Program-made: the position numbers and the translations under genes
Assembly (NCBI GenBank): GCA_033344815.1
Contig: JAWPMR010000001.1
Coordinates: 2,094,136 to 2,158,135 of the forward strand
Source of the DNA: Paracoccaceae bacterium
Lineage (GTDB): Bacteria; Pseudomonadota; Alphaproteobacteria; Rhodobacterales; Rhodobacteraceae
Direction of reading: 5' to 3'
DNA: 64,000 bases
In this document: positions 7,781 through 23,832 of the stretch, piece after piece
Layout of the letters: every line of letters begins with the position of its first letter
Numbering within the stretch: the first letter of the stretch is position 1
The notes under the pieces: generated by a model
The model's input: only the letters and a program-made list of their open reading frames with translations
Told to the model about the DNA's origin: nothing
Database searches by the model: none

Positions 7781-8113
7781 TCATTCCAGTATTTTGACCG
7801 GCCGTTCCCATTGGATCAAAACCACGCAGCCCGGTTCAGACCACACAGAATGCGACGTCCCTTCCGGATTCAGCACGCAGCAACCTTTTGTATAAGTCCC
7901 ACGTTCATCCGATTGCGCCCCCTCCAGAACGAGGATTGTTTCCAAGCCTGTATGTAAATGGTTTGGTACTCTTGCGCCGGGTTCATAACGCAAAAGGGCC
8001 ACAGCAGGCGCGCCTTTTTGGATGTGGTAAATCTCGACTCCCTCACGAAACGGCTCAAAGGGCAGTTCGTTATATCCATCCATCAGATCTGCAATAAAAA
8101 TCGGTTCAACCAT
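7781..8113 (-). CDS. Small single-domain cupin protein
   Basis: 110 residues from the ATG at 8113; an 8-residue longer start at 8137 would run further into the preceding gene. The cupin metal-binding motif is [16 protein letters not shown] and the second motif includes GTSHSVW. Single-domain cupins of this type (ChrR-like) bind a metal and may be small enzymes or ligand sensors. It is the last gene of the nitrogen-compound operon and overlaps the upstream hydrolase by 8 bases, so it is probably co-translated. No precise role can be assigned. It ends 17 bp from the convergent kinase gene. Confidence 0.8.
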
Positions 8114-8777
8114 GCCACGCGGCCTCCAATTCGGCAAAGCACGCAGTCCAGCCCACGATCGCCCCTTGCGCGCGGATCATCTGCAGCGTTGCCGCTTTAA
8201 AAGCGGGAAAATAGCTTTCTGTCGCGTCCTCCACGAGCAAACTGTCAAAACCACGATCATTGGCTTCCCGCATCGTTGTCTGCACGCAGACTTCCGTCGT
8301 CACCCCTCCAAATATTAGCGTTTTTATCCCCAATGTCGTCAGGTGTTGCGCGAGGGGTGTCGCGTAAAAAGCACCCTTGCCAGGTTTGTCGATCACCATT
8401 TCCCCGTTAGCCGGATACACTTGGGGAATGATATCCGCGCCCTCTTCGCCTGCAATCAATATGCGCCCCATGGGACCGGGGTCGCCGATGCGCAAGCTTG
8501 GGTCCCCCCGATCTCGTTTTGCGCGCGACAGGTCCGACAAATCGGGTCTGTGACATTCGCGAGTATGAATCACTGGTACGTCGCGGGCACGACACAGCTC
8601 AATCAGTGCCGCAGTCGTGGGCACAATGGCCTGCAACAATGACACATCATTTCCAAGACTTTCACCAAACCCCCCGGGTTCAATGAAGTCGCGTTGCATA
8701 TCGATCACGATCAGCGCCGTGCTGGCAGGATCAAAAACAAAGGTGAAAGGCTGAGCCCCTGGGATCTGCTGCATCAT
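8106..8777 (-). CDS. Isochorismatase-fold cysteine hydrolase (triuret/biuret hydrolase-like)
   Basis: 223 residues. The catalytic triad of the family is visible: Asp26 in IVIDMQRDF, Lys131 in [10 protein letters not shown], and Cys164 in [15 protein letters not shown]. The protein is clearly paralogous to the BiuH-like enzyme two genes upstream (shared GDPG, IDKPGKG and MREANDRGF blocks). Known relatives hydrolyse C-N bonds of biuret, triuret or ureidoacrylate and release ammonia. I infer that this one handles a compound one step above biuret, for example triuret, but it could equally be a second biuret or N-carbamoyl amidase. It starts ATGATG overlapping the stop of the ABC ATPase gene. Confidence 0.85.
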
Positions 8778-10294
8778 GCGTGCCCCCCCATGTGACTACC
8801 GATCTCTGCAACATCAGCTTTTCCAGTATCCACATCATAGGTAATGCGCCCTTCAGACATGACCAAAACGCGGTCAGTAAGCTCCATGAGCTCGTCGAGA
8901 TCTTCAGACATCAGCAATACGGCTGCGCCGGCATTGCGGGCCTCCATGATCCGCGCCCGAACTTCGCTCACAGCAGAAAAATCGAGTCCAAAGCAGGGGT
9001 TGGAAATGATCAGAAGGTCCACATCCCCGGACAATTCACGCGCCAGCACGGCGCGCTGAACATTCCCCCCAGAGAGCGCATTGATCGGACTGTCAAGTGA
9101 GGTCGTCTTGACCTTGAACCCCGCGACCAGTGCGGCGGCACGCCGGTTCATGTCACGTTTGGACAGCCAGAAACGTTTTCCCGCCCCTTGCACGTCAAAA
9201 CTGCGAAACCCAATATTTTCTGCAACAGACATACGCGGAGCACAGGCGTTGCGCAGCGGTTCCTCAGGCAGAAACCGCACGTTCAATCGCCGGGTTTCAT
9301 CGCGCCCTGCGCCATAAGGCGCCCCTTTGACATGGATCGTGCCTGCCTGACGCGCGCGCTGTCCGGTCAGGATTTCCATCAATTCCATCTGACCATTGCC
9401 CGATATGCCCGCAATGCCAACAATCTGTCCCGCGCACACTTTCAGATCGTCGATTTCGATCTGTTTCAAACCCGATCTGTCGCGCGCTTTGATCCCGCTC
9501 AATTCCAGAACCGGCGCGCCGGTTGTACCTGTTCTGGGCGCGGGTACCGCCAGATTGGCCTGCCCCATCATCAGACTGGCCATGTCTGCATGGCTGAGAT
9601 CCGTGACTTTGCCGCCGCCCACCAACTTGCCGCGCCGCAGGACGGATACTTCATCCGCAAAAGCCGTAACTTCCCGAAATTTATGGGTAATCATAAGCAC
9701 CGAAATCCGCCCCTGTGCGCAGAGCGCCCGCATGTGGCCGAGCACCTCATCTGCCTCATCCGGGGTCAAAACAGAGGTCGGTTCGTCCAGGATCAAAAAC
9801 TTCCGCCCCAGATAAAGCTGTTTGAGAATCTCCAGCTTTTGCTTTTCCCCCGCTGCCAGGGCGCGCACAGGTTGATCCAGCGGCACCTGAAACGGCATCG
9901 TTTTCATGAACGCTGCAAGGGCTGCATGTTCGGCGCGCCAGTCAATGATGCGCGGGGCATCTTCGCGGCTGATCACCAGGTTTTCCGCCGCGCTCAACGA
10001 CGGCACCAGCGTAAAGTGCTGATAGACCATACCAAGCCCGACCGCATGAGCCGCCTTTGGATCACTGATCCGGGCTTCACGCTGATCCACAAGCATCTCG
10101 CCAGAGGTCGCGTGATAAAACCCCATCATGCATTTCACCAGCGTGGATTTACCCGCGCCGTTCTCGCCCAGCAGGGCATGGAAACTACCCGGTTTGATCT
10201 TGATCGAACAGTCATCCAAGGCTGTAAACCCGCCGAATTGCATCGTCATGCCGATCGTTTCGACGCCGATGGCCCCTCGCGTGGTGAGTGTCAT
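8774..10294 (-). CDS. ABC transporter ATP-binding protein with two nucleotide-binding domains (BMP-type importer)
   Basis: 506 residues with tandem ATPase domains. The first has GENGAGKST and [12 protein letters not shown]. The second has a degenerate Walker A (GISGNGQME) and signature [15 protein letters not shown], as in RbsA/MglA/YufO. The C-terminal half keeps [10 protein letters not shown]. This is the expected ATPase for the BMP-type binding protein and two permeases of the same operon. It overlaps the neighbouring hydrolase genes by 4 bases on both sides (ATGA), indicating a tightly coupled operon. Confidence 0.92.
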
Positions 10295-10965
10295 GGCAAT
10301 TGGTTCAACACGGTTTCGCTGTCACTGACCGCCCCAAAAACGCCACCCTGCATGGTGACCATCTTGAGTGCGGCGTCATGATTGCCCTGGTCGGTTGCGC
10401 CACAGCAATCCGACAGGACCAGACATTCAAACCCACGGTCATTGGCTTCGCGCATTGTGGTCGATACACACACATCCGTGGTGATACCGGTGAGAATGAT
10501 GTTTTCGATCCCCCGCGTGCGCAGGATCATTTCAAGATCGGTGGCGTAAAAACTGCCCTTGCCCGGTTTATCAATGATCGGTTCGCCCGGTTTCGGCGCG
10601 AGATCCGGGATAATACCCCACCCCGCCTCACCGCGCACAAGGATTTTGCCACAGGGTCCCGGATCCCCGATACCTGCTCCAATCTGTTGACTGCGCCAAC
10701 GCTTGTTTGCGGGCAGATCAGCCAGATCAGCGCGATGCCCTTCTCGCGTGTGAATGATATGGTATCCTTTGCCGCGCATTACGCCCAACAGGCGTTTGAT
10801 CGGCGCAATCGGAGCTTGCGTCATCGACAAGTCATACCCCATTTTGTCCACGTACCCACCGGTTCCACAAAAATCCGTCTGCATGTCGATGATCATCAGA
10901 ACGGTATTTTCAGGGCGCAAGTCACCGTTGTAAGGCCATGCATAGGGCTCGGATTTGATCGTCAT
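10291..10965 (-). CDS. biuH: Biuret amidohydrolase-like cysteine hydrolase
   Basis: 224 residues from the ATG at 10965, which overlaps the formamidase stop (ATGA); a longer frame to 11109 only runs through that gene. Family residues are Asp27 (MIIDMQTDF), Lys133 (IDKPGKGSF) and Cys166 ([15 protein letters not shown]). The N-terminal [28 protein letters not shown] and [15 protein letters not shown] segments match what I recall of rhizobial biuret hydrolase. The reaction is biuret + H2O to allophanate + NH3. Allophanate hydrolase is encoded in the neighbouring operon (21557-23362), which supports the call. RutB-type ureidoacrylate hydrolase is the main alternative. Confidence 0.82.
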
Positions 10966-11978
10966 TCTGCGGCCTCCGCTTTGGGCGTGCCATAGATCCG
11001 CGTGGGTTCGGGAAAGCCAAAATCGGTTCCATCGGTGGTCTTGACCGCGTCCTCCCAGGGCAATTGGTACTGCCCTGCCGCCAGATCCGTCATGTACGTG
11101 TAAGGACAATCCTGCGCGCCACCTTTAACAGCCACATAGCCGCGATGCCCGAATTGGTAGATGTTGTTCTCTACTCCCCAGTTGATCCGCGCCTCGCGCA
11201 CCAGATCGGGGCGGACCTCGGCGGTGATGATCTCGTCCGCGCGACCCGATGTGCCATGGGCAATGATGCTACCATCAAAGTTGCAAAACATCCCTTCGCC
11301 CATGCTGTCAAAGGTCCCATCAGAGCCGCACATGCACACATTGGCCGTCACCATCAGATTGCAGAAGGCGTTGGATTGGTTGGTGAATTTCCAACTGTCG
11401 CGAATAGGAGCAGTATACCCGGCTGTGCGCAACATGATTTCTGCGCCTTTGTAGGCGGCCTCGCGTGCCATTTCTGGGAACATCCCGTCATGACAAATGA
11501 TCAACGACAATTTACACCCGTTGGGCCCGTCAATGACCGGAATACCGCCATCTCCCGGCTCCCAGGGTTCAACCGGCACCCAAGGATGCATTTTGCGGTA
11601 GTAGAGTTTCACATCACCCGTGTTGTCGATGATCAGACCGGTGTTCCAGGGCATGCCACCGGGGTTCGCCTCCATGATCGAAAAACAGCCCCAGATGTCA
11701 TTATCGATACAGGCCTGCTTGAAGGCCGCAACCTCGGGGCCGTCCATGGTGCACATGATCGCCGGGTTGATGTCCATCGACAGCCCGTGCAGCGCATATT
11801 CGGGGAAGACCACCAGATCCATGGTGCCCATGTTGCGCCGGGCCTTGGCTGTCATCTCCACGATCCGGGCGGTTTGGGCAGCCAAATCGTCCGGGGTTTG
11901 CACCACAGGCAGCTTTAACTGAACCAATCCAATTACCACGCCGTTTGGCGATTTGTTCAAGCCTCCAAGTCCATTCAT
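10962..11978 (-). CDS. amiF: Formamidase (nitrilase superfamily)
   Basis: 338 residues, the length of AmiF. The nitrilase-superfamily triad is Glu60 ([10 protein letters not shown]), Lys129 (YYRKMHPW) and Cys162 ([10 protein letters not shown]). The flanking [19 protein letters not shown] and [14 protein letters not shown] blocks are those of formamidase/aliphatic amidase. AmiF converts formamide to formate and ammonia in the cytosol. Its place between transporter permeases and a biuret-type hydrolase suggests recovery of ammonia from small amides, though the true substrate could be a related short amide. It precedes the BiuH-like gene with an ATGA overlap. Confidence 0.9.
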
Positions 11979-11990
11979 GTCTGCGTCTCC

Positions 11991-12914
11991 TTATTTGGTT
12001 ATGCTCAACTCACCCGGCGCGCCGGTCATGGCGCGGGTTGGCGAGGAGGTTGCGATCAAAACACCCAGCGTGAGCACGTAGGGTGCTGCGAAAAACAAGT
12101 AGTAGCCCTCGGAAATACCTACCGACTGCAGCGTTGGGCCAAGCGCACCGGCACCGCCAAAGAGCAGCGCTGCGCCAAAGCAGGCAATCGGGTTCCAGCG
12201 GGCAAAGATGACCAAGGCAACTGCCATCAGGCCCTGCCCGGAGGAAATCCCCTCATTCCAGCTCCCTGGGTAATAGAGCGACAGATACGCGCCTCCAACT
12301 CCGGCAAAAGCCCCGCCGACAGCCGTGGCCAGCGCACGGATCAGGTTCGGTCGCAACCCCATCGCGCGGGCGGCATCCGTGCTGTCTCCCACCACACGCA
12401 GGACCAGCCCGATTTTTGTTGCACGCAGCATCCACCAGATCACAAAAGCCAGCACAGCACCGATCAGAAACAGGACATTGACCTGCAGTGCAGCTCTGAT
12501 TTGCGTCACATCCGACCACCAGCCAAAACTGATGGCAGGCAAATCCGGGGCCACGGGTTGCACAAAAGGTTTGCCGAAATAAAAAGCCAACCCCATGCCG
12601 AGGATCATCATTGCAATGCCGACAGCGATATCGTTCACCTTTGGCAACGAACAGATCACCCCATGCAGCAGGCCAAAGATCGCACCGCATAATGCCGCCG
12701 CCGCGACACCAATCCACGGCGATCCGGTAAGATAGGCTAGCGCATAACCGGACATGGCCCCAAACACGAGCGTACCTTCAAGTCCCAGATTGATACGTCC
12801 TGAGCGCTCCGTCAGCACCTCGCCGAGGCTGACAAACAGGAAAGGAGTTGAAACACGGATCGCCCCGCCGATGATCGCCAGCGGGATCACCCAAAGACCC
12901 AGATCACCGTCCAT
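11991..12914 (-). CDS. ABC transporter permease (BMP/nucleoside-type, second permease)
   Basis: 307 residues from the ATG at 12914, preceded by GGAGGG seven bases upstream. A TTG at 12929 would add five residues and lose that ribosome site. It is highly hydrophobic with about eight membrane segments and the family motif GRINLGLEGTLVFGAM. This is the YufQ/RbsC-like branch that works with BMP lipoproteins. It shares one base with the end of the preceding permease gene (TGATG), so the two are coupled. Confidence 0.9.
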   Translation of the reverse strand: MDGDLGLWVIPLAIIGGAIRVSTPFLFVSLGEVLTERSGRINLGLEGTLVFGAMSGYALAYLTGSPWIGVAAAALCGAIFGLLHGVICSLPKVNDIAVGIAMMILGMGLAFYFGKPFVQPVAPDLPAISFGWWSDVTQIRAALQVNVLFLIGAVLAFVIWWMLRATKIGLVLRVVGDSTDAARAMGLRPNLIRALATAVGGAFAGVGGAYLSLYYPGSWNEGISSGQGLMAVALVIFARWNPIACFGAALLFGGAGALGPTLQSVGISEGYYLFFAAPYVLTLGVLIATSSPTRAMTGAPGELSITK

Positions 12915-14023
12915 CAAGCCGCCCTCCAACGTTCCGGCGCAAAGATTTTGAAACGTCCATAGAGAGTTTCGGAAATCAAAATCGACATGAACACAAAGCC
13001 TTGCAACACAAGTATTGTGGCATCCGGCAAGTCCATCCGGCGTTGAACAAGACCCGAAGACGCCTCAAAACCAGCCAGCAGGATGGCGACAGGAATGATC
13101 GCCAGCGGATTGTGTCGCGCCAGGAAAGCAATCAGAATGCCCGTATAGCCATAGCCGCCGGCCAAACTTGCGTTTGCAGATCCATGCACGGCGGCAACCT
13201 CAAAGAAACCGGCCAGCCCTGCGATTGCTCCGCCGAGCGCCGTGAACCCTACCACCAGCCATCCGACGGGCAGGCCCTGGACCTGAGCTGCACGGATATT
13301 TCCACCGGCAATGCGTGCGGCAAAACCCCAAGTGGTTTTTTCCATCAAAACCCACGCGAGCACACAACAGATCACACCAAAAACCAGCCCCCAATGCACA
13401 TCCCACCCGGAGATATTACCAACCCGCAGCGCTTCCTGCAGCGGGGCGGTGGAGGGTTTGTTCAGGCTTGCAGGATCGCGCAACGGGCCTTCGACAAGAT
13501 GGTTCATCAGAGCGATTGCGATATAGGCCATCAGGAGGCTTGAAATCGTTTCGTTTACGCCACGAAAGTGGCGTAGAGCTCCGACCGCGCCAATCCAAAT
13601 TGCACCGACCATCATTGCAATGAACATTATTATCGGCATCGCCAATCCCGCTGGCATGCCACTAAGCGCAACCCCGGTCGCACCTGCCGCTACCCCTCCC
13701 AGAACGATCGCGCCTTCACCGCCAATCACCACCAGCCCTAGGCGCGCGGGCAATGCGACACATAGTGCCGCTAGCAACAGTGGCGCTGCGCGTGAGAGGG
13801 TGTTTTGCCAAGAAAACGCGGTGCCAAAACCACCGCGATACACCAGCGAAAAGAACTCAGACGGGGCCTTGCCCTGAAACAGCAGGAAAATGCTGAAGAC
13901 CGCAAACCCGACCAACAGGGCACCGAACGGAAGGACAATTGCCTCAGCACGCCGCACCCAGGTCGCCAACCCGAGAGGGGTCTGTGACACCGTGTGCGCG
14001 GCGCGTATCGCATTCTGGTCCAT
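12914..14023 (-). CDS. ABC transporter permease (BMP/nucleoside-type, first permease)
   Basis: 369 residues from the ATG at 14023; a TTG at 14059 would overlap the preceding gene and is less likely. The N-terminal cytosolic arm is followed by eight or more membrane segments, with the motif RLGLVVIGGEGAIVLGG typical of YufP-type permeases. It pairs with the next permease and the 506-residue ATPase to form an importer. Known BMP systems take up nucleosides or related N-rich molecules. Co-location with amide and biuret hydrolases suggests an open-chain urea oligomer or similar ligand here. Confidence 0.88.
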   Translation of the reverse strand: MDQNAIRAAHTVSQTPLGLATWVRRAEAIVLPFGALLVGFAVFSIFLLFQGKAPSEFFSLVYRGGFGTAFSWQNTLSRAAPLLLAALCVALPARLGLVVIGGEGAIVLGGVAAGATGVALSGMPAGLAMPIIMFIAMMVGAIWIGAVGALRHFRGVNETISSLLMAYIAIALMNHLVEGPLRDPASLNKPSTAPLQEALRVGNISGWDVHWGLVFGVICCVLAWVLMEKTTWGFAARIAGGNIRAAQVQGLPVGWLVVGFTALGGAIAGLAGFFEVAAVHGSANASLAGGYGYTGILIAFLARHNPLAIIPVAILLAGFEASSGLVQRRMDLPDATILVLQGFVFMSILISETLYGRFKIFAPERWRAA

Positions 14024-14042
14024 TGACCCACCAAACGCCAGA

Positions 14043-15158
14043 TCAGGAAGTTGAGCCAATCACACCTTCGACCAGGTAATCCATGCTTTCCAAAGCGATA
14101 TCATCTTCGGCAAAAGCTGCACCTTCCGCTGCAATGACCTTGCCCGTGTTGTCCAGCAAAGGACCACGGATTGCAGCAAAACCACCTGCCATGATATCGG
14201 CTTTCGTGGACTCAAATTGCGCGCGCGATGCATCAGACACAGAAGGCCCAAGCGGTGACATCTTGATAAAGCCATCCGCCAATCCCCCGCGTACAAAATT
14301 GTCAATTGAGCCGCCTTCCTGCACGGTTTTGACCATGCTCGTGTAGACCCCGGCCCAGTTCCATTCCGCACCGGTGAGATATTTCTCCGGTGCCAGCGGA
14401 GATTGATCGGCATGATAGCCGCACACAAAGCAATCGCGTCCTGCGGCCGTTTCCATCACCACCTTGGGCCCATCCACATGACAGGTGATCACATCACAGC
14501 CCGCATCGGCCAACGCATTCGTGGCTTCAGCCTCTTTGACTGCCAGTGACCATTCGCCGGTGAAAATGACCTGACAGGTGATTTCAGGATCAACCTGCCG
14601 CGCGCCCAACAGGAAGGAATTGATGTTCAACAGCACCTGCGGGATCGGTTTGGCCGCCACAAAACCGATCTTCTTTGTCTTTGTCGCATGACCCGCCGTG
14701 ATCCCGTTCAGATACTGCCCCATGCCGATGTATCCGAAATAAGATCCAACGTTCGTGGGCATCCCTTCACTCCAGAGGCCAGCGGCATGTTGAAAGCGTA
14801 TATCTGGGTATTTCGGCGCAGTTTCAAGCACATGCGGATTGAAATACCCAAACGACGTTGGAAAAAGCAGCTTCGCTTCATCGAAGTTGATCATTGATTC
14901 CATTGATTTTTGGACGTCTATTGTTTCGGCAACGTTTTCCTCTTCGACCACTGTTACGCCCTCCATGGCCTTTACCGCGGCCGCACCTTCGGCATGGGCT
15001 TGGTTGTACCCAAAGTCATCTTTCGGACCGACATAGATAAAACCGACGGTCAGTGGTGCGTGGGATGCGGCATATGTGAGTTTTGGCAGGGCTGCAGTCC
15101 CTACGGCCGCAGCGGTTGCTTTAAGAAAGGTCCGGCGAGGCAAAAATGAAATTGGCAT
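14043..15158 (-). CDS. BMP-family ABC transporter substrate-binding protein, Tat-type signal
   Basis: 371 residues from the ATG at 15158, which follows AAGGAG at ideal spacing; an upstream Met at 15221 lacks this. The N-terminus has a twin-arginine export signal, PRRTFLKATAAAVG, with cleavage near TYAASHA. The mature protein begins LTVGFIYVGPKDDFGYNQAH, the BMP/Med (PnrA-like) signature. It should bind the ligand in the periplasm and pass it to the two following permeases. It is the first gene of the eight-gene nitrogen operon (15158 down to 7781). Confidence 0.9.
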   Translation of the reverse strand: MPISFLPRRTFLKATAAAVGTAALPKLTYAASHAPLTVGFIYVGPKDDFGYNQAHAEGAAAVKAMEGVTVVEEENVAETIDVQKSMESMINFDEAKLLFPTSFGYFNPHVLETAPKYPDIRFQHAAGLWSEGMPTNVGSYFGYIGMGQYLNGITAGHATKTKKIGFVAAKPIPQVLLNINSFLLGARQVDPEITCQVIFTGEWSLAVKEAEATNALADAGCDVITCHVDGPKVVMETAAGRDCFVCGYHADQSPLAPEKYLTGAEWNWAGVYTSMVKTVQEGGSIDNFVRGGLADGFIKMSPLGPSVSDASRAQFESTKADIMAGGFAAIRGPLLDNTGKVIAAEGAAFAEDDIALESMDYLVEGVIGSTS

Positions 15159-15259
15159 AGAAAAGCTCCTTAAACTCCAGAACAGAGCCGGTAGGGCTCG
15201 ATCAGCTATTGCGTTGTCCAAAGAATGTCTGGTTTTAAGCGTTGCTGTCTTCTGCTAAT

Positions 15260-15289
15260 ATCGCAACGTTGTGATGCAAAAAATGCATC
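15260..15289. promoter_or_regulatory. Palindromes in the BMP-operon promoter (candidate LysR sites)
   Basis: Two adjacent palindromes lie 100-130 bp upstream of the BMP binding-protein ATG. One is ATCGCAACGTTGTGAT at 15260-15275 (one mismatched pair). The other is GATGCAAAAAATGCATC at 15273-15289, containing the 13-mer TGCAAAAAATGCA (15275-15287). The 13-mer differs by one base from TGCAAAAATTGCA at 16266-16278, in the other promoter beside the same lysR gene. Confidence 0.5.
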
Positions 15290-15338: not shown

Positions 15339-16241
15339 TTACCTGATCGCCAGCTTTTCAAGCGCAGCAACAAGCTGCTGGCCAAATTTGGCCGAGGCAA
15401 CGGGCAAAGCACGTCCTTTCATCTGACCAAGCAACAATTGACCTGATGGCACGTCACGCTCAGCCAGTGGACGATGCGCGATGGCACCTTGTTTCTGCGG
15501 ATTCAAGCCAATTGGGATCTGAAATCCTACGGCATCTTCTTGCGTGACATGATGACGTATGAGTTCGAAGGATTCCGTTTCCACCGTTGGGGTCAGAGTG
15601 CGTCCGATCCGGGTAGCCCCCAGCTCCAGCAAATGCCGCACCCCATAGGCGCGTGTGGGCAAGACCAGCCTGTGTGTAAGGCAATCCCGCAACCTCAGCA
15701 TTGGTTTTTGCGCAAGCGGCCCATCATGCCGGAAAACGGCGTGAACCGTTTGCGGCAGAGCATGAAGCACATCGAATTCCACGAGGTGCACCGGCTCAAA
15801 GACCAGCGCCAGATCACTGCTGTAGGACGCCAGATCTCGCTCTGCTTGCGCACGATCCCGCACATTCACCGAAAAAGTCACCCCAGGATGTGCTGCGCGG
15901 TAAATCGCAATCTGTTCAGGCAGAAAATAGGGCAGCAGAGCCTGCGAGCAGGCAATCGAGATGTGCCCGCGCCGCTCGCCCGACAAATCAGCAACCTGTG
16001 ACTGGACGCGGGCCAGATCGGTGCGTTGCAAGCGAATATGCTGCATAAGTACTTCACCCGCCGGATTAAGGCGCATGCCACGCGGCAGACGCTCAAAGAT
16101 GGGCCACCCGAATTCTTGCTCGAAATTCTGGATACGGCGATTGAGAGCAGATGCGGTCAGATTTGTGTCCTCCGCGGCCTTGCGAATAGAACCCGCACGC
16201 ACCACGGCCTCAATCAAATCAAACGTCATTAAGTATCTCAT
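15339..16241 (-). CDS. LysR-family transcriptional regulator of the nitrogen island
   Basis: 300 residues. The N-terminal winged helix-turn-helix (residues 8-65) includes GSIRKAAEDTNLTASALNRR, followed by the co-inducer domain starting RGHISIACSQALLPYF. The gene lies between the BMP operon (same strand, downstream) and the peptide-type importer/allophanate operon (divergent), the classic position of a local regulator. The start at 16241 has GAGA eight bases upstream; Met5 at 16229 is an alternative. The effector is unknown, and a urea oligomer or pathway intermediate is the natural guess. Confidence 0.9.
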   Translation of the reverse strand: MRYLMTFDLIEAVVRAGSIRKAAEDTNLTASALNRRIQNFEQEFGWPIFERLPRGMRLNPAGEVLMQHIRLQRTDLARVQSQVADLSGERRGHISIACSQALLPYFLPEQIAIYRAAHPGVTFSVNVRDRAQAERDLASYSSDLALVFEPVHLVEFDVLHALPQTVHAVFRHDGPLAQKPMLRLRDCLTHRLVLPTRAYGVRHLLELGATRIGRTLTPTVETESFELIRHHVTQEDAVGFQIPIGLNPQKQGAIAHRPLAERDVPSGQLLLGQMKGRALPVASAKFGQQLVAALEKLAIR

Positions 16242-16260
16242 AAAATGTCTCTTTTCGCCT

Positions 16261-16283
16261 ATCGCTGCAAAAATTGCAGCGAT
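16261..16283. promoter_or_regulatory. Perfect 10-bp palindrome in the lysR/ABC divergent promoter
   Basis: Arms ATCGCTGCAA (16261-16270) and TTGCAGCGAT (16274-16283) are perfectly complementary around AAA. The site lies 20 bp upstream of the lysR ATG and 95 bp upstream of the divergent binding-protein gene. This is the position expected for an autoregulatory LysR operator. It resembles the palindromes at 15260-15289. Confidence 0.6.
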
Positions 16284-16377: not shown

Positions 16378-17985
16378 ATGATGAACACCACTTCCCGAAG
16401 AAACTTCCTTAAAATGAGTGCTGCAGGGGCCTCCATTCTGCCGTTCCTGCGGGCAATGCCTGCTGCTGCGCAGGGCTCTGACACGCTTGTCGTGGTAACT
16501 GGGGCAACCATCAACAGCCTCGATTTGCACCGAACCGGCACCAGTCGGGCATCCTATCAGGTAGGCATAAACTGTTATGATCGGCTTTTGACTTTCGGCA
16601 CAAAAGAAGCGCCGGGCGGTGGGTTGTCCTATGATTACACCGATGTACAGCCGGAGCTCGCCGAAAGCTGGACAGAATCCGAAGATGGGCTGACCCTGAC
16701 GTTCAAACTGAAATCCAATGCAACCTTCTGGGACGGGCGCAAGGTGACAGCGGCCGATGTGAAATGGTCGTTTGATCGTGCAGTCTCGGTTGGCGGCTTC
16801 CCGACTGTACAGATGAAAGCGGGCGGTCTGGAACGCCCTGAGCAATTCATCGCAGAGGATGATGAGACTTTTATCATAAAGCTGGACCGTGCATCCAAGC
16901 TGACCATTCCGGATCTGGCCGTGCCTGTGCCCTATGTCATCAATTCAGTTGAAGCTTTGGCGAACGCCACCGAAGAAGATCCTTGGGCTTTGGACTATCT
17001 GCACCTGACACCAGCTGGATCGGGCGCGTATAAAGTGGCCCGCTGGACGGCAGGAGAGCAGCTTGTCTACGAGCGCAACGACGACTGGGTCGGTGGGCCT
17101 TTGCCAGCCACTAAACGGGTGATCATTCGCGAAGTGCCCAGCCCCGCAACGCGACGCGCGCTGATTGAACGCGGCGATGTGCAAGTGGCATTCGACATTC
17201 CGGACAAAGATGCTGCGGAACTTGCCGAAACACTGGATGTTTTCTCCACGCCGGTCGAGAACTGCATTCACTGTTTGTGCCCGAACTTTGCATTTGAACC
17301 GTTTCAGGATGCCGATGTGCGCAAAGCCATTGCCTATGCAATCCCCTATGAGGACATCTTCAAGGCGGCTGCGTTTGAGCGCGGATTACCCATGTGGGGT
17401 GGCGAGGAAGAGATCAACGACATCGCCTGGCCGCGCAAGACACAGTATTACACCGATCTGGACAAGGCTCGCGAGCACATGGCCAAATCAGGATACGCAA
17501 ATGGGTTTGAAGTGCCGCTATCGATCAGCCTCGATCTGGCGTCATGGATGGAACCCACAGCACTTCTGGTTCAAGAAGCCTTGGGAAAAATCGGAATCAC
17601 AGTGGAGATTGAAAAGATCCCCGGGGCCAACTGGCGCACCGCTGTTCTGGTCGAAAAACGCCTGCCGTTGCACCTTGAGAATTTCGGCGGCTGGCTGAAC
17701 ACGCCAGATTATTATTTCTTCTGGGCTTATCAGGACGGGCATCTGTTCAATTCCTCCAACTACCGTAACGAGGAGATCGAGGAACTTGTAAACGCCACGC
17801 TGCACATGCCAATGGACGATCCGGAATACGCGCCAAAGATCAAACGCATGTTCGAGATCGCGCTGGATGAATTGCCGCGCATTCCGCTTTATCAGCCCGC
17901 CCTCAATGTGGCGACGAATGGAGCAGAAGGATATGAGTTCTGGTTCCATAGACAGTTGGATGTGCGCGTTCTGAAGTCCGTATAA
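16378..17985 (+). CDS. ABC transporter substrate-binding protein, family 5 (peptide/nickel/opine type), Tat signal
   Basis: 535 residues. The N-terminal twin-arginine signal is SRRNFLKMSAAGAS, with cleavage near MPAAAQ. The mature domain has family-5 features: AESWTESEDGLTLTFKLK, FWDGRKVTAADVKWSFDR, and a C-terminal ALDELPRIPLYQP. Such proteins bind peptides, opines or other polar solutes in the periplasm. It heads a six-gene operon ending in allophanate hydrolase and RidA. I therefore infer that its ligand is a nitrogen compound that feeds allophanate rather than a peptide. The start is ATGATG at 16378. Confidence 0.9.
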   Translation: MMNTTSRRNFLKMSAAGASILPFLRAMPAAAQGSDTLVVVTGATINSLDLHRTGTSRASYQVGINCYDRLLTFGTKEAPGGGLSYDYTDVQPELAESWTESEDGLTLTFKLKSNATFWDGRKVTAADVKWSFDRAVSVGGFPTVQMKAGGLERPEQFIAEDDETFIIKLDRASKLTIPDLAVPVPYVINSVEALANATEEDPWALDYLHLTPAGSGAYKVARWTAGEQLVYERNDDWVGGPLPATKRVIIREVPSPATRRALIERGDVQVAFDIPDKDAAELAETLDVFSTPVENCIHCLCPNFAFEPFQDADVRKAIAYAIPYEDIFKAAAFERGLPMWGGEEEINDIAWPRKTQYYTDLDKAREHMAKSGYANGFEVPLSISLDLASWMEPTALLVQEALGKIGITVEIEKIPGANWRTAVLVEKRLPLHLENFGGWLNTPDYYFFWAYQDGHLFNSSNYRNEEIEELVNATLHMPMDDPEYAPKIKRMFEIALDELPRIPLYQPALNVATNGAEGYEFWFHRQLDVRVLKSV

Positions 17986-17987
17986 AG

Positions 17988-19022
17988 GTGCTCACCGACT
18001 ACCCCCGGCTGCGCGCGATCCTGTTGCGCGTGGCTCAAGCAATCCCCGTGGTGATCGGCGTCGTTGTCATAAGCTTTTTGCTGACACGCGCCCTACCGGG
18101 TGATCCAGCGGTGTACTTTGCCGGGGTGGCCGCCGATGAAGCATCTATTGAACAGGTTCGTATCACATTGGGCCTGGACAAATCGATGGCTCAGCAATTC
18201 GTCATTTACGTCGGAAACCTGCTACAAGGCGACTTGGGTCAATCGTTGTCCAGCGGCAGACCGGTGGCGACCGATCTGGCAAACCGATTGCCCGCCTCTT
18301 TGGAATTGACCCTGACCGCCTTGCTTTTGGCCGTTGTCATTGCTGTTCCGCTGGGCGTACTCGCCGCCACACGCCCCGGCACTTGGGTGGATCATGTATG
18401 CCGGGTTCTGGTGACTGCGGGGGTATCGCTGCCAACGTTTTTTACCGGGATCCTTTTGATTTATATATTTTATTACCTTCTGGGCATAGCCCCGTCACCC
18501 TTGGGTCGGTTGGATTTTATCTATCTGGATCCGGATCATGTGACCGGCTTTTACCTGATAGACGCAGCCCTTATGGGCGATTGGGAAACCTGGCGCGGCG
18601 CGGCGAAACAGCTGATACTGCCCGCCTCTACCTTGGCCCTGTTCACGCTGGCGCCCATTGCACGGATGACGCGGGCTGCGATGCTCACGGCGCTGTCCTC
18701 TGATTTCATCCGGACTGCCCGCGCCGCCGGATTGTCCAGCAGTTTGGTTCTTTACCGCTATGCATTTCGCAACGCACTGCTGCCGGTTGTGACCACCTTG
18801 GGAATGGTCTTTTCCTTTGCCCTTGGCGCGAATGTTCTGGTGGAAAAGGTTTTCGCCTGGCCCGGTATCGGATCTTATGCGGTCGAGGCACTTGTGGTCT
18901 CTGATTATGCTGCTGTTCAAGGGTTTGTGTTGGCCATGGCTCTACTATTTGTGGCACTTAACTTATTGATTGATCTGCTTTATACGGCGATTGACCCTCG
19001 CATCGGGTTTTCGTCCAAATGA
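17988..19022 (+). CDS. ABC transporter permease (DppB type)
   Basis: 344 residues from a GTG start two bases after the binding-protein stop. The DppB N-terminal motif LLRVAQAIPVVIGVVVISF is present, followed by RALPGDPA and a permease loop with RAAGLSSSLVLYRYAFRNAL (the EAA site). Five to six membrane segments. It forms the channel with the DppC-type partner, with which it overlaps by 4 bases (ATGA). Confidence 0.92.
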   Translation: MLTDYPRLRAILLRVAQAIPVVIGVVVISFLLTRALPGDPAVYFAGVAADEASIEQVRITLGLDKSMAQQFVIYVGNLLQGDLGQSLSSGRPVATDLANRLPASLELTLTALLLAVVIAVPLGVLAATRPGTWVDHVCRVLVTAGVSLPTFFTGILLIYIFYYLLGIAPSPLGRLDFIYLDPDHVTGFYLIDAALMGDWETWRGAAKQLILPASTLALFTLAPIARMTRAAMLTALSSDFIRTARAAGLSSSLVLYRYAFRNALLPVVTTLGMVFSFALGANVLVEKVFAWPGIGSYAVEALVVSDYAAVQGFVLAMALLFVALNLLIDLLYTAIDPRIGFSSK

Positions 19023-19897
19023 CAGATATGCTCCAAAAGCCGTCTACTACTGCGGAAGGCAATTTTGCTCATATCCTATATGTTTTGAGGGCCAATCCTG
19101 TCACTTTGGTGGCATTCGGCATGTTTGCATTTCTGATCCTGTCGGCGATCTTTGGCCCGGCACTGGTGCCTTATGATCCTTTGGCAACAAACGCGGCAAC
19201 GGCCCTGCAGCCACCCTCATCAGCGCATTGGTTCGGCACCGATCAAGTTGGGCGCGATGTCTTCAGCCGCGTAATCGTGGCAACCCGGCTGGATTTGTCG
19301 ATTTCGGTTGCAGCAGTGGCTTTGTCCTTTGTCGTCGGCTCCATTCTGGGATGTGTCGCAGGGTATTGGGGCGGCTGGCCCGACATCATTCTGAACCGGT
19401 TTCTCGATACGATCATGGCCTTTCCGCTCTTCGTCCTGGCCATGGGTATCGTGGCCGCTTTGGGCAATACGATTGAGAACATCATTTATGCCACCGCGAT
19501 CATCAATATGCCATTTTATGCCCGTCTGGTGCGCGCCGAGGTCAACATCCGGCGCGATGCGGGGTTCGTGCGCGCCGCCAAACTGGCCGGAAATTCGGAT
19601 CTGCGCGTGTTGGCGACGCAAATTTTTCCAAACGCTTTGCCGCCGATGATGGTCCAGGTCTCGCTCAATCTTGGTTGGGCGATCCTCAATGCCGCAGGGC
19701 TGTCGTTTATCGGGCTGGGCGTCAGCCCACCCACTGCCGAATGGGGTATCATGGTTGCCGAAGGCGCCAACTTCATAGTCTCCGGAGAATGGTGGCTGGC
19801 CGTATTTCCCGGGCTGTGGCTTATGTTTGCGGTGTTCACATTTAACCTTTTGGGCGACGGGCTGCGCGACATTGTCGACCCGCGCAAAAGGACGTAG
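19019..19897 (+). CDS. ABC transporter permease (DppC type)
   Basis: 292 residues. It has the DppC N-terminal arm and first membrane segment, then HWFGTDQVGRDVFSRVI, the hallmark of this permease class. The permease loop is FVRAAKLAGNSDLRVLATQIFPNALPP, here read in two overlapping parts. It ends GDGLRDIVDPRKRT, another DppC signature. The start overlaps the DppB-like stop; the fused ATPase gene begins 5 bp after its own stop. Confidence 0.92.
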   Translation: MTDMLQKPSTTAEGNFAHILYVLRANPVTLVAFGMFAFLILSAIFGPALVPYDPLATNAATALQPPSSAHWFGTDQVGRDVFSRVIVATRLDLSISVAAVALSFVVGSILGCVAGYWGGWPDIILNRFLDTIMAFPLFVLAMGIVAALGNTIENIIYATAIINMPFYARLVRAEVNIRRDAGFVRAAKLAGNSDLRVLATQIFPNALPPMMVQVSLNLGWAILNAAGLSFIGLGVSPPTAEWGIMVAEGANFIVSGEWWLAVFPGLWLMFAVFTFNLLGDGLRDIVDPRKRT

Positions 19898-19902
19898 CCG
19901 CA

Positions 19903-21534
19903 ATGCTTAGCGTCAAAGATCTCTGCGTAAAATTCCAAACCCGGCGTGGCGCAGTAGACGCGGTGCGTGGCATAAGTTTCGAAGTATCCAAAGGCGAGAT
20001 TCTCGGGATTGTCGGAGAAAGCGGGTCAGGCAAATCGGTCACATCTTATGCCTTGATGCGTATTCTTGATGCGGGCGGCACAATTACAGCAGGCGAAGCC
20101 GTCTATTCCGGTGTTGATTTGCGCCGCGCCGCAGAGCGTGACATGCGCAACATTCGCGGGCGCGAAATTTCGATGATTTTTCAGAACCCGCGCGCGGCGC
20201 TTAACCCGATCCGCAAGGTGGGGCATCAAATCGAGGACGTGTTGCGCCAGCATGCCCGCGCGACACGCTACGACGCCCGCATCAAGGCTGTTGAAGCGTT
20301 GAAGGCCGTTCGGATCAATGATCCCGAATCGCGCTATGATGCCTATCCTTTTGAGCTTTCAGGGGGCATGTGTCAGCGGATCGTCTGCGCGCTGGCACTG
20401 GCTTGTGATCCACGCCTTTTGATTGCAGATGAACCGACCACGGGGCTCGATATCACGACTCAAAAGGCAGTCATGGATCTTGTGCGCGACCTGATCCGGG
20501 CGCGTGACATGAGCAGTATACTGATCACCCATGACCTTGGGCTTGCTGCGCAGTATTGTGATCGCATTCTGGTAATGAAGGATGGGGTGATCGTGGAACA
20601 AGGCGATCCCGTGCAGATTTTCAGTGAACCTCAGCATCCATATAGTCGCAAGTTGGTGGATGCCACGCCGCGGATAGGCGCGAGCGTGCGCAGCCTGCTG
20701 CCCCCCGAGGATCGCGCCAGCGAACTGGTGGTAGAAGTAAGCGATCAGCCACTGTTGCAGGTGCGCAATCTGGTGAAGACCTATGCTGGAAAGTCGGGGC
20801 CGGTACAGGCGGTCAAAGGCATTTCTTTCACCATCAATCGGGGCCAATGTGTGGGGTTGGTCGGCGAAAGCGGATGTGGTAAATCCACCACTTCCGAAAT
20901 TCTGGTGCGGTTGCTGGACGCAACAGATGGAGAGATCCTGTTCGAAGGCCAGGACATTGGTGCAACCGCGGCGCGTCGCTTTGCCAGCGATGCGATGCGC
21001 GCGAACATCCAGATGGTATTTCAGGACGCCACAGACAGTTTGAACCCGCGCCATACTGCGCGCCAAACCATTGCGGAGCCTCTGCGACGGCTGGGACATA
21101 TGAGCGGCGCGGCGTTGGCCGCGCGCATAGAGGATCTGGCGCAATTGGTCGGGCTGCCCTTGCCACTGCTGGAGCGGTTTCCACATCAATTGTCGGGCGG
21201 TCAGAAAGCGCGGGTTGGCATTGCCCGTGCTGTTGCGCTCAATCCAAAGTTCCTGATTCTGGATGAGCCCACGGCGGCGCTGGATGTCTCCATTCAGGCT
21301 GTTGTATTGAATCTATTGGTAGATTTACGCGCGAAACTGAACCTAAGTTATCTTTTTGTCAGTCATGATCTGCATGTTGTCCGCTTGTTATGTGACCATG
21401 TGATCGTCATGAAAGACGGTCAGATCGTCGAACAGGGCAGCGCAGAGAACGTCATGTCCAACCCGCAAAGCGCTTACACAAAATCCCTGATCGCAGCGGC
21501 ACCCAAACCGCCACAACGCCGTCAGGCCAGCTGA
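19903..21534 (+). CDS. Fused dipeptide-type ABC ATPase (DppD-DppF in one chain)
   Basis: 543 residues carrying two complete ATPase domains. Domain 1 (about 1-255) has GESGSGKSV, LSGGMCQRIVCALALA and ADEPTTGLD. Domain 2 (about 285-540) has GESGCGKST, LSGGQKARVGIARAVA and LDEPTAALDVSIQ. Peptide importers usually use two separate proteins, but fused versions (YejF/GsiA-like) are known. It completes the importer with the upstream binding protein and permeases and lies 22 bp before allophanate hydrolase. Confidence 0.93.
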   Translation: MLSVKDLCVKFQTRRGAVDAVRGISFEVSKGEILGIVGESGSGKSVTSYALMRILDAGGTITAGEAVYSGVDLRRAAERDMRNIRGREISMIFQNPRAALNPIRKVGHQIEDVLRQHARATRYDARIKAVEALKAVRINDPESRYDAYPFELSGGMCQRIVCALALACDPRLLIADEPTTGLDITTQKAVMDLVRDLIRARDMSSILITHDLGLAAQYCDRILVMKDGVIVEQGDPVQIFSEPQHPYSRKLVDATPRIGASVRSLLPPEDRASELVVEVSDQPLLQVRNLVKTYAGKSGPVQAVKGISFTINRGQCVGLVGESGCGKSTTSEILVRLLDATDGEILFEGQDIGATAARRFASDAMRANIQMVFQDATDSLNPRHTARQTIAEPLRRLGHMSGAALAARIEDLAQLVGLPLPLLERFPHQLSGGQKARVGIARAVALNPKFLILDEPTAALDVSIQAVVLNLLVDLRAKLNLSYLFVSHDLHVVRLLCDHVIVMKDGQIVEQGSAENVMSNPQSAYTKSLIAAAPKPPQRRQAS

Positions 21535-21556
21535 TCCACAATTCGGAGACTCCAAA

Positions 21557-23362
21557 ATGCTCAGCAAACTGCCCTTTACCATGAGCGCCCTGCGGGCCGC
21601 CTATGCTGCCGGAACACGCCCGGCAGACGTCATTGACGAGCTCTTTGCACGACTTGACGCAGTCGGCGATCCGGGCATTTTCATTCATCTGCGCGACAGG
21701 GATGGGTTGCGGGCTGAGGCGGAAGCGTTGGGCGATTTTGATGGGGACAAACCGCTCTGGGGCATCCCCTTTGCTGCCAAGGACAATATCGACGTGGCGG
21801 GGATTGAAACCACAGCCGGCTGCCCCGCCTATGCCTATACCCCTGAGAAAGACGCCTTTGTGATTGCTAAACTGCGCGACGCGGGAGCGATTATGATCGG
21901 GAAGACAAACCTTGATCAATTCGCGACCGGTCTGGTGGGTGTGCGGACGCCCTACGGTGCGCCACTCAACGCTGTCGATCCCGAGATCGTGCCGGGGGGA
22001 TCATCCGGTGGGTCGGGTGTCATCGTCGGGCATGGAATCGTGTCGTTTTCGTTGGGCACGGATACTGCCGGATCAGGCCGGGTACCCGCCGCGCTGAACA
22101 ATATCGTGGGGCTCAAGCCAACGCTGGGCGCCCTTTCAGCCAGCGGTGTTGTGCCAGCCTGTCGCACGCTGGATACGGTGTCGATCTTTGCCCTGACCGT
22201 GGATGACGCCTATGCCGCCTTCGCGGTGGCTCGCGGATTTGATCCAGCCGATGCCTACAGTAAACCCTTGCAACATGCGGCGCTGTCAGAGCCGGAAATG
22301 CCCCTGCGGATCGGGGTGCCGGATGCCGCCTCCATCGAATTTTTCGGGGATGAAGTGCAAAGGGCAGCCTTTGAACGGGATATCGCGATTCTGTGCGCAA
22401 ACGGGGCGGTTATTGAACCCATCGACTTTGAGCCACTCCACGCCATAGCGCGCATGCTCTATGAGGGCGCATGGGTGGCCGAGCGTTACACGGTCATTGA
22501 CGATCTGCTCCGCCGCGATCCGCAAGCCATTCATCCCGTGACACGCAAAATCATCACACACGCAGAAACCATGTCTGCCGCAGATGCATTCCGGGGTATC
22601 TATCGATTGGCAGATTTGAAACGTGCCGCAGAACCAATGTTGGAAGGCCTCGATATGCTCTGTGTGCCCACGATCCCAACGTTTTATTCGGTGGCTGATC
22701 TGGAGGCCGATCCCGTTGCACCCAATTCCAACAATGGCACCTACACAAATTTCGTGAACCTGCTCGACATGTGCGGTATCGCCGTTCCGACAGCGCCGCG
22801 CAGCGATGGCCGACCAGGCAGTGTCACCCTTTTGGCCGGCGCGGGAGGTGACGCGTTGGTGGCTTCCGTTGCACGCGAATTCGAAGTTGACTGCACGCGC
22901 AATTTGGGGGCCACGACGCATCCAGTGACAACACCCGCTCCGTTGCCTGCAGCAGCATCCGACCACATTGATCTCGCTGTTTGCGGTGCGCATATGCGCG
23001 AACTGCCGCTCAATTGGCAGTTGACCGATCTGGGCGCACGGTTTGAGCGCGCCACGCGCTCTTCGCCGGATTATAAATTCTACGCGCTGGCCGGTGGGCC
23101 GCCTGCCAGACCCGGCCTGATATACGCCGAAGGGCCCGGTTCCGGATCCATCGCACTGGAAATCTGGTCGGTGCCCAAAACTGAACTTGGCACGTTTCTG
23201 GCGGGGATCCCGGCCCCGCTCGGCATTGGAACCATTGTGCTTGAAGATGGATCAACTGTGAAAGGCTTCCTATGTGAAACGCGAGGCATAAAAGGTGCCA
23301 AAGACATTACAGCCCTTGGCGACTGGCGCAGCTTCCTTGCCCGTGAAAGCACGCTGGCATGA
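21557..23362 (+). CDS. atzF: Allophanate hydrolase
   Basis: 601 residues, full length for AtzF. The N-terminal amidase-signature domain has the Ser-cisSer-Lys triad at Lys75 (PFAAKDNID), Ser149 (VPGGSSGGSG) and Ser173 (GTDTAGSGRVPA). The C-terminal allophanate-hydrolase domain (about residues 465-600) includes LAVCGAHMRELPLNWQLTDL and KGFLCETRG. It converts allophanate to CO2 and two NH3 in the cytosol. No urea carboxylase is adjacent, so the allophanate probably comes from biuret through the BiuH-like enzyme of the neighbouring operon. Ribosome site CGGAG lies ten bases upstream. Confidence 0.95.
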   Translation: MLSKLPFTMSALRAAYAAGTRPADVIDELFARLDAVGDPGIFIHLRDRDGLRAEAEALGDFDGDKPLWGIPFAAKDNIDVAGIETTAGCPAYAYTPEKDAFVIAKLRDAGAIMIGKTNLDQFATGLVGVRTPYGAPLNAVDPEIVPGGSSGGSGVIVGHGIVSFSLGTDTAGSGRVPAALNNIVGLKPTLGALSASGVVPACRTLDTVSIFALTVDDAYAAFAVARGFDPADAYSKPLQHAALSEPEMPLRIGVPDAASIEFFGDEVQRAAFERDIAILCANGAVIEPIDFEPLHAIARMLYEGAWVAERYTVIDDLLRRDPQAIHPVTRKIITHAETMSAADAFRGIYRLADLKRAAEPMLEGLDMLCVPTIPTFYSVADLEADPVAPNSNNGTYTNFVNLLDMCGIAVPTAPRSDGRPGSVTLLAGAGGDALVASVAREFEVDCTRNLGATTHPVTTPAPLPAAASDHIDLAVCGAHMRELPLNWQLTDLGARFERATRSSPDYKFYALAGGPPARPGLIYAEGPGSGSIALEIWSVPKTELGTFLAGIPAPLGIGTIVLEDGSTVKGFLCETRGIKGAKDITALGDWRSFLARESTLA

Positions 23363-23832
23363 CATCACACGCCGAAGAACGTCTGTTTGAGTTGGGTTTC
23401 GAGTTACCTTCCGACTGGACACCGCGCGGGCAGTTTTTACCGTTTCGAAAGGATGGACTTATTGTCTATCTCTCCGGCCAGATCTGCGAATGGGCGGGAG
23501 AGGTCACACATATCGGCCCTGTCACCGATACCCCGGAAGCCCTTGAAACTGCTCGAACAGCGGCGCAGATTTGCGCGCTGAACCTGCTTTATCGGCTCCG
23601 CGAGGCCTGCGAGGGAGATCTGGATCGAGTAGATGTTGTCCTGCGACTTGGCGGGTTCGTGAATTGTGGCTCCGGGTTTCCGCACAGTCCTGCGGTAATC
23701 AACGGTGCCACTGAAGTTTTCATCGCGGCTTTTGGCGATCAGGGATGGCACGCTCGCACGGCAGTTGGTGTGTCCGGACTGCCGGGCAACGCCTCAGTCG
23801 AGGTAGATGCAATCGTCCGCCTCAAAAGCTGA
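23359..23832 (+). CDS. RidA/YjgF-family protein (Rid subfamily)
   Basis: 157 residues with the RidA fold. Recognisable segments are FRKDGLIVYLSGQICEWAGE, QICALNLLYRLREACEGDLDRV and RTAVGVSGLPGNASVEVDAI. Rid proteins hydrolyse reactive imines/enamines or amidic by-products, and some sit in pyrimidine or s-triazine pathways. The start overlaps the allophanate hydrolase stop (ATGA), so it is part of the same pathway unit. It ends immediately against the convergent amidase gene (stop codons abut at 23832/23833). Confidence 0.9.
   Translation: MTSHAEERLFELGFELPSDWTPRGQFLPFRKDGLIVYLSGQICEWAGEVTHIGPVTDTPEALETARTAAQICALNLLYRLREACEGDLDRVDVVLRLGGFVNCGSGFPHSPAVINGATEVFIAAFGDQGWHARTAVGVSGLPGNASVEVDAIVRLKS

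Follow-up and report, generated by a model that had tools for sequence, protein, structure and literature searches.

The breakdown of triuret and biuret through the enzyme chain TrtA-(TrtB)-BiuH-AtzF is already described for Herbaspirillum and R. leguminosarum 3841, and the available part of that report also gives the residues which discriminate TrtA from BiuH (PMC7948467). Nitrifiers possess clusters of the order trtA-biuH-trtB-bmpA-nupABC, the trtA-biuH-bmpA synteny being in print in the accessible portion of the respective paper (PMC12625717). Two further systems are comparable, as far as the available sections of the publications describe them: AtzT is a BMP-family binding protein encoded beside cyanuric-acid genes (PMC6834077), while in betaproteobacteria AtzF occurs with atzG-atzE-atzH and ABC transporter genes, which were read as serving the uptake of a nitrogen compound (PMC6219798). 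The core pathway, i.e., the triuret/biuret enzyme chain and the co-location of a BMP-type importer, is thus already published, and the novelty that the preliminary description of the locus saw in a BMP-type transporter for this purpose is lost, considering the nitrifier clusters (PMC12625717, in its available part), the operon of R. johnstonii 3841 and the position of AtzT beside cyanuric-acid genes (PMC6834077, likewise).

Two neighbouring operons at positions 7781-23832 of the window (the whole stretch of 64,000 nucleotides of Paracoccaceae DNA that was analyzed) very probably constitute, as judged from their sequences, a LysR-controlled nitrogen-scavenging regulon for triuret and biuret with two importers and an apparently common DNA switch. 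All genes listed in the preliminary description were found open at their positions, and two more genes within the range, those of a formamidase (10962-11978) and a small cupin (7781-8137), were absent from that list. As described there, a single lysR gene is flanked by the left (BMP/biuH/trtA) and the right (peptide-type importer/atzF) operons. An amidase gene at 23833-25083 was rejected as a cluster member, because it is followed by the gene of a nitrile hydratase alpha subunit and by a match to the C-terminus of the beta subunit; nitrile hydratase genes with an amidase gene form a usual operon.

In R. johnstonii 3841 the BMP-importer/BiuH/TrtA operon has the same gene order, but there atzD lies between biuH and the ATPase gene and gntR beside the BMP gene, whereas here atzD is missing from that position and lysR is the neighbour. 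The three hydrolases and the discriminating residues are the same as in the pathway of PMC7948467, in its available part; unlike there, atzF belongs here to a second, divergent operon, where it lies between the peptide-type importer and a RidA-like gene. The nitrifier clusters share the co-location of the BMP-type importer with trtA, biuH and atzF, but a formamidase is named nowhere in the main text of that paper, and neither a peptide-type importer nor a LysR box was found described in its available sections (PMC12625717); the present locus has the first two and a putative box. The atzRSTUVW system of Pseudomonas sp. ADP is alike in the BMP fold with its aromatic sandwich, in LysR-type (AtzR) control and in the enzymes ending in AtzF, but its other enzymes, AtzD, AtzEG and AtzH, are different (PMC6834077, available part). 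The betaproteobacterial clusters likewise have allophanate hydrolase adjoining ABC transporter genes, the transporter family being left unnamed in the accessible text, but contain atzG-atzE-atzH, of which none is present among the annotated genes here (PMC6219798).

Within a family sample of 248 genomes, trtA/biuH (match threshold E 1e-40) occurred in 29, AtzF in 36 and both in 27 (p = 4e-26); the genomes, as well as the loci compared below, are related by common descent, so that their counts and Fisher values exaggerate independence. Urea carboxylase, which would indicate the urea amidolyase route, was found in none of 12 genomes, the present one included, above the TIGR02712 cut-off, which extends to the entire genome the earlier remark that its genes are not adjacent.

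The LysR-type regulator (15339-16241, minus strand; Pfam) stands between two copies of a palindrome, TGCA-W5-TGCA, one ahead of each operon. The putative LysR-type box TGCATTTTTTGCA (15275-15287) precedes the BMP gene start by 117 bases, and the second one, TGCAAAAATTGCA (16266-16278), lies 25 bases before lysR and 100 bases before the gene of the peptide-type binding protein. Both fit the palindromic T-N11-A pattern, which is the norm for LysR-type regulators. In 94 related loci (L192 being left out as a copy of L106), all 47 copies of the box were situated directly upstream of a BMP gene, a gene of the peptide-type binding protein, atzF or lysR. The box preceded the BMP gene in 25 of the 45 loci with the present lysR (a count that retains L192) versus 1 of the 37 loci without it; it was missing there in 20 of these 45 loci, as well as before the peptide-type binding protein in 12/27 loci and in 7/14 divergent atzF/lysR pairs. 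Of the best 80 among 522 related loci, 39 contain a regulator at least 48% identical to the present LysR. The organism's own genome (5.08 Mb) contains seven box sites, two in this cluster and five elsewhere: one between divergent importer genes, one within a predicted gene and three near genes without an evident link. With the box ahead of both operons, and 47 out of 47 copies upstream of pathway genes, both operons look like one LysR regulon, in which the regulator would bind the box.

The formamidase gene (10962-11978, minus strand) lies directly before biuH, and the two reading frames overlap. Its product resembles the AmiF formamidases (5G3O, 2DYU) in family, in a score above the NCBIfam cut-off (PRK13287, 568 bits; cut-off 406) and in E60, K129, E137 and C162, which we take to be the expected catalytic residues, and differs in that its gene sits in a biuret operon. 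A formamidase at least 78% identical to it was found in 17 of the 248 family genomes (three matches at 34-35% identity being dropped), and all 17 possess trtA/biuH, with biuH adjoining each time (p = 6e-19). These facts, together with the overlapping frames, speak against an ordinary formamide-scavenging enzyme which is merely carried along and has no role in ureide breakdown. Nevertheless, we give that explanation an even chance: the score and the catalytic residues are those of a formamidase proper, 12 of the 29 trtA/biuH genomes have no match, and enzymes 82-83% identical occur in L166, L167 and L180 with no biuH match within the covered sequence. The 80 related loci, having been chosen with the formamidase itself, are useless for estimating its frequency.

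The right operon, entirely on the plus strand, begins with a peptide-type (SBP_bac_5; Pfam) periplasmic binding protein (16378-17985), the translation of which starts with a twin-arginine motif, followed by Opp/Dpp-type permeases B (17988-19022) and C (19019-19897; both Pfam) and a fused Opp/Dpp-type ATPase of 543 aa with two ABC_tran stretches (19903-21534), so that the importer with fused ATPase of the preliminary description is fully recovered. Next comes AtzF (21557-23362; TIGR02713, 757 bits, cut-off 511; PRK08186, 806 bits, cut-off 487), which comprises the amidase domain and the C-terminal AH_C domain PF21986 and is indeed a full-length allophanate hydrolase. The operon ends with the RidA-like (YjgF) protein noted earlier (23359-23832; PF14588, 41.6 bits, cut-off 35), the gene of which is also placed after atzF in L187 and L192; the majority of the closest loci end short of that position. 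AtzF was detected in 40 of the best 80 of 522 related loci, among which the closest stretches stop within the peptide-type importer, short of the atzF position.

A dedicated role of both importers in the uptake of triuret and biuret would agree with the box common to both operons and with the single lysR that they flank. It would agree as well with the higher occurrence of the peptide-type importer in genomes with trtA/biuH (11/29) than in the others (5/219; p = 2e-8) and with its location within 15 kb of trtA in 9 of the 11 genomes having both. We nevertheless consider it unlikely, since of the 16 genomes with the peptide-type binding protein (at least 61% identity; G030, G085 and G138, as well as the second matches of G092 and G138, were dropped, their identity being 37-42%) five gave no trtA/biuH match at E 1e-40 although AtzF and lysR are present, and within the set of 36 genomes possessing AtzF no association of the importer with trtA/biuH is seen (Fisher p = 0.47). 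The importer thus tracks AtzF (16/16) more closely than TrtA/BiuH (11/16), and it is improbable that it is dedicated to triuret and biuret. Inspection of nine flank genes in the five genomes revealed no enzyme common to them. The predicted structure of the binding protein was set aside (mean pLDDT 51). Of the earlier proposal that the importers carry urea oligomers, only the part concerning the BMP-type importer is retained, with triuret or biuret as its most likely cargo.

The BMP-type importer was confirmed in all its components on the minus strand: a duplicated ATPase with two ABC_tran stretches (8774-10294), present in 75 of the 80 related loci (the best 80 of 522, chosen with the formamidase), BPD_transp_2 permeases 2 (11991-12914) and 1 (12914-14023), and an AtzT-like BMP-family periplasmic binding protein (14043-15158; Pfam Bmp, 119.5 bits) with a Tat-like signal (TAT_signal, 21.7 bits, slightly below the cut-off of 22.7). 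AtzT is both the best PDB match (6PI5) and the top Foldseek match of the latter protein, which has the AtzT-type fold and the aromatic sandwich Y45/W194 with S97-F98. The identity to AtzT is 36%, and Q174 (numbered from the start codon at 15158, an ATG) occupies the place of the guanine-bonding E165 of AtzT (PMC6834077, available part). In 78 linked BMP proteins this position is Q in 59, T in 14 and S in 5, and glutamate in none; by alignment, the protein is an AtzT-type binder of planar ligands without the guanine-reading glutamate. The His/Asp pair at AtzT positions 218/220 was considered as an indicator of a non-purine pocket and then dropped: all 78 linked proteins have it, but so do 6 of 37 others (second BMP genes in Methylobacterium loci; 31 lack it) and, by eye in the alignment, adenine-bound 3S99, which leaves the absence of E165 as the sole discriminator. 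The control is narrow, as 30 of the 31 pair-less proteins are best-scoring Pfam matches, nearly all of one signature.

The kinship with AtzT also raises the question of whether cyanuric acid, other s-triazines or oxidised-purine compounds are the main substrates of the left operon, with triuret secondary. The operon of R. johnstonii includes atzD, which also occurs in 12 of the 80 related loci, and in one genome the AtzF importer stands beside AllG and xanthine-dehydrogenase-like genes. We find this reading quite improbable, since the annotated genes of the present operon do not include atzD, 68 of the 80 loci have no atzD match and 62 have TrtA, and the guanine-binding glutamate is missing from all 78 linked BMP proteins.

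A TrtA hydrolyzes triuret, its activity with biuret being about four orders of magnitude lower. The two paralogous isochorismatase-fold hydrolases, both on the minus strand, have the intact Asp/Lys/Cys triads attributed to them earlier, D-K-C being present in 151 of 152 homologues, while the remaining one is partial. The protein at 8106-8777 shares 132 of 212 residues (62%) with the assayed Herbaspirillum TrtA (6XIX) and possesses all seven discriminating residues, F35, N41, A134, E160, Y187, Q202 and I205 in the numbering of PMC7948467 (plus 2 in this protein). The one at 10291-10965 has Y, Y, S, D, T, Q and V at these positions, scores 409 bits with NF050097 (NCBIfam; cut-off 370) and is identical in 172 of 222 residues (77%) to BiuH of R. 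johnstonii, the crystallised Rhizobium enzyme; its mechanically listed frame, 10291-11109, was judged too long, because the homologues begin at the ATG at 10965, which gives a 4-base overlap with the formamidase stop. Of the 152 homologues (L192, a copy of L106, included), 70 are TrtA-like, 81 BiuH-like, one is partial and was dropped, and none is mixed. In a FastTree analysis of 158 sequences the 83 BiuH-type proteins formed one group with no foreign member (support 0.89), but the 72 TrtA-type ones formed no group (0.49) with the distant outgroup, so that the assignment leans on residues and identity, not on rooting. It is hardly credible that the pair belong to a different kind of cysteine hydrolase, be it for ureidoacrylate, for guanylurea or an unrelated amidase, because, common fold and a comparison set without the guanylurea hydrolase GuuH notwithstanding, they remain far below the cut-off of the RutB model TIGR03614 (85 and 118 versus 378 bits), are 62% and 77% identical to assayed TrtA and BiuH and match the published set in every discriminating residue. 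By sequence, 8106-8777 is the triuret hydrolase TrtA and 10291-10965 the biuret hydrolase BiuH, which makes the conversion of triuret via biuret and allophanate into ammonia the likely chain and supports the earlier suggestion that one paralogue feeds the other.

The small cupin (Cupin_7, Pfam; 7781-8137, likely start 8113, minus strand) directly follows trtA, as also in R. johnstonii, SC52 and Sulfitobacter, and its H60, H62, E66 and H96, a metal-site-like motif, are invariant in 4/4 aligned sequences; from position and motif it is a probable carboxybiuret decarboxylase TrtB. The BMP-type importer would take up a planar urea-type compound, most likely triuret or biuret; TrtA would convert triuret into carboxybiuret and one ammonia, carboxybiuret would give biuret by its own decay or through the cupin, BiuH would yield allophanate, and AtzF of the adjoining operon would release ammonia and CO2, each hydrolase performing the step assigned to its family. 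The boxes and the intervening LysR would couple the two operons. The peptide-type importer would form part of the AtzF half, probably importing a different nitrogen compound whose breakdown leads to allophanate, and the formamidase would be an optional extra of the BiuH half, possibly acting on an N-formyl substrate. Tentatively, and with considerable doubt, all this may be extended to one LysR regulon defined by TGCA-W5-TGCA, where the BMP importer serves triuret/biuret, the peptide-type importer a second compound reaching AtzF without BiuH/TrtA (allophanate or a larger ureide, e.g., an oxidised-purine product), and the formamidase deformylates N-formyl ureides for BiuH.

Urea fertiliser is a source of both triuret and biuret, and uric acid oxidation yields triuret as well (PMC7948467, available part); our search of the available parts of open-licence full texts found no assayed importer for either. 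The present analysis adds the palindromic box with the one-regulon reading, the peptide-type importer tracking AtzF, the biuH-linked formamidase and the AtzT-type BMP protein without the guanine glutamate. The cluster supplies two candidate binding proteins for ligand work, its regulatory box offers a handle for finding more members of the apparent regulon, and it points to genomes which possess allophanate hydrolase and the importer without trtA/biuH or urea carboxylase.

A single lysR gene (15339-16241, minus strand) is flanked on either side by an operon in the window. The left operon runs on the minus strand from 15158 down to 7781 and encodes a BMP-family binding protein bearing a Tat-like signal, two permeases, a formamidase (10962-11978), a BiuH-type enzyme (10291-10965), a duplicated ATPase, a TrtA-type enzyme (8106-8777) and a small cupin (7781-8137); the right operon (16378-23832, plus strand) encodes a peptide-type binding protein, two permeases, a fused ATPase, allophanate hydrolase (AtzF) and a RidA-like protein. 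The formamidase and the cupin had been overlooked in the preliminary description; all the genes that it lists were confirmed. The source genome is a single contig of 5.08 Mb. Abutting the RidA-like gene, the minus-strand region 23833-26025 carries an amidase, a nitrile hydratase alpha subunit (25077-25709) and a match to the C-terminal part of the beta subunit (25699-26025), and a similar amidase (56-61%) adjoins RidA in two related loci, L187 and L192. Further on, 26843-29611 (minus strand) encodes a protein of 922 residues that has a beta-helix region as well as 14 stretches of RTX calcium-binding repeats.

The 8106-8777 protein shares 132 of 212 aligned residues with the assayed triuret hydrolase (TrtA) of Herbaspirillum, the 10291-10965 protein shares 172 of 222 with the crystallised biuret hydrolase (BiuH) of R. 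johnstonii 3841, and identity between the two window proteins is 46%. At the positions separating TrtA from BiuH that are named in the relevant passages of the TrtA-describing paper (PMC7948467), the former protein possesses the complete TrtA set (F-N-A-E-Y-Q-I) and the latter the complete BiuH set (Y-Y-S-D-T-Q-V). Among 152 homologues from related loci, 70 carried TrtA-type residues (67 exactly, three with a single change) and 81 BiuH-type residues (78 exactly, three with a single change) at these published positions; one sequence was partial and none was mixed. BiuH scored above its NCBIfam cut-off, and both hydrolases fell far below that of the ureidoacrylate amidohydrolase RutB. AtzF exceeded its model cut-offs, with the C-terminal domain present. 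Since no urea carboxylase above the cut-off was found in the source genome or in the 11 relatives searched, allophanate probably does not originate here from urea carboxylation. Judged from these sequence comparisons, the predicted triuret/biuret pathway is real and nearly complete, including a step that we infer for the cupin as the probable carboxybiuret decarboxylase TrtB. In CP049031 (locus L002, 16653-16994), the public record labels a 113-residue cupin following trtA 'allophanate hydrolase', apparently in error.

The core of this pathway is already known. R. johnstonii 3841 has the gene order BMP protein, permeases, formamidase, BiuH, AtzD, ATPase, TrtA and cupin; in other organisms, published work describes clusters of trtA, biuH, trtB and atzF with a BMP-type importer in nitrifiers (PMC12625717), the BMP-family protein AtzT adjoining cyanuric acid genes in Pseudomonas sp. 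ADP (PMC6834077), and ABC transporter genes, of a family unnamed in the relevant passage, beside AtzF in betaproteobacteria (PMC6219798).

Two copies of the palindrome TGCA-W5-TGCA are present in the window: one precedes the BMP start by 117 bases, and the other lies 100 bases ahead of the peptide-type binding protein and 25 ahead of lysR. The chance expectation for the window is 0.08 for the narrower and 0.12 for the wider pattern, and two matches to the latter were reached in 2 of 100 shuffles. The whole source genome contains seven sites: of the five outside the window, one lies inside a predicted gene, three adjoin genes without evident link, and one (L238, source genome 4232800-4236800, box at 2028) sits between divergent nitrate/taurine-type ABC importer genes. 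This last site is the only other genomic copy of the exact BMP-side 13-mer, and its importer might be a further member of the same regulon. Each of the 47 sites found in 94 related loci (omitting L192 as a copy of L106) lies 12-149 bases ahead of the estimated start of atzF, of lysR, of the BMP protein or of the peptide-type binding protein. Of the 45 loci with this lysR (L192 included), 25 have the box before the BMP gene, vs 1 of the 37 without this lysR; shared descent of the loci inflates these counts, yet their LysR regulators span 51-88% identity to that of the window. The box was missing before BMP in 20 of the 45 lysR-bearing loci, before the peptide-type binding protein in 12 of 27 and between atzF and lysR in 7 of 14, so it may be degenerate there. 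We read the window LysR as a putative regulator governing both operons via these candidate boxes.

The predicted structure of the BMP protein (mean pLDDT 86.8) gave AtzT as the best Foldseek match (TM-score 0.80 by query; 36% identity). Nine residues taken from the relevant passages of the AtzT paper (PMC6834077) were located on the AtzT sequence and then mapped to the BMP proteins. All 78 linked BMP proteins conserve S97-F98 and the aromatic sandwich (Y or W at 45, W194), and at the place of guanine-binding E165 they have Q in 59 cases, T in 14 and S in 5. The pattern is compatible with a flat ligand that is not guanine, and does not name it. Six Methylobacterium loci (L141, L156, L158, L160, L171, L182) carry, close to the biuret cluster, a second protein of the BMP family with glutamate at the E165 place, together with G169, H218 and D220 as in adenine-bound 3S99, so these loci may encode two BMP importers differing in specificity.

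In the family sample of 248 genomes, trtA/biuH matches at E 1e-40 were found in 29. The formamidase (at least 78% identity) was detected in 17 genomes, all within these 29 and all with biuH no more than 300 bases away (Fisher p 6e-19; as the genomes are related by descent, this and the p values below overstate independence). Among the best 80 of 522 formamidase-found loci, biuH was present in 75, directly after the formamidase in 70 of them; of the five without it, L160 and L165 end less than 600 bases from the formamidase, and L166, L167 and L180 have other neighbours among the genes inspected. Litoreibacter roseus, a member of the Roseobacteraceae, is among the nearest named loci by formamidase (92-94%), as are records of Tateyamaria and Yoonia. 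The main texts of PMC7948467, PMC5806882, PMC12625717 and PMC6219798 never use the word formamidase, which does not establish the enzyme as unreported; the sole match to a joint search with biuret, covering open-licence full texts, is listed as a paper on biosensors.

Of the 248 genomes, 36 have AtzF, including 27 of the 29 with trtA/biuH. The peptide-type binding protein (at least 61% identity) was found in 16 genomes, AtzF being present in all 16 and no more than 10 kb away in 15 (in G207 it is on a separate contig). The tie of this importer to trtA/biuH was apparent over the whole sample, where it is commoner with these genes (p 2e-8) and disappeared inside the 36 AtzF genomes (p 0.47). Eleven of the 16 importer genomes carry trtA/biuH; in the other five (G001, G092, G113, G154, G226) lysR, importer and AtzF stay together despite the lack of a trtA/biuH match. 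Given the presence of AtzF in every importer genome and the lost association within AtzF genomes, AtzF is the constant partner of the peptide-type importer. In G226 (locus L190), genes for AllG (oxamate carbamoyltransferase), an amidohydrolase and xanthine-dehydrogenase-like proteins adjoin the importer and AtzF, which hints, and no more, at oxidised-purine products. What the two operons add to the known core is a putative two-operon regulon with its box, a peptide-type importer tied to AtzF and a formamidase tied to biuH.
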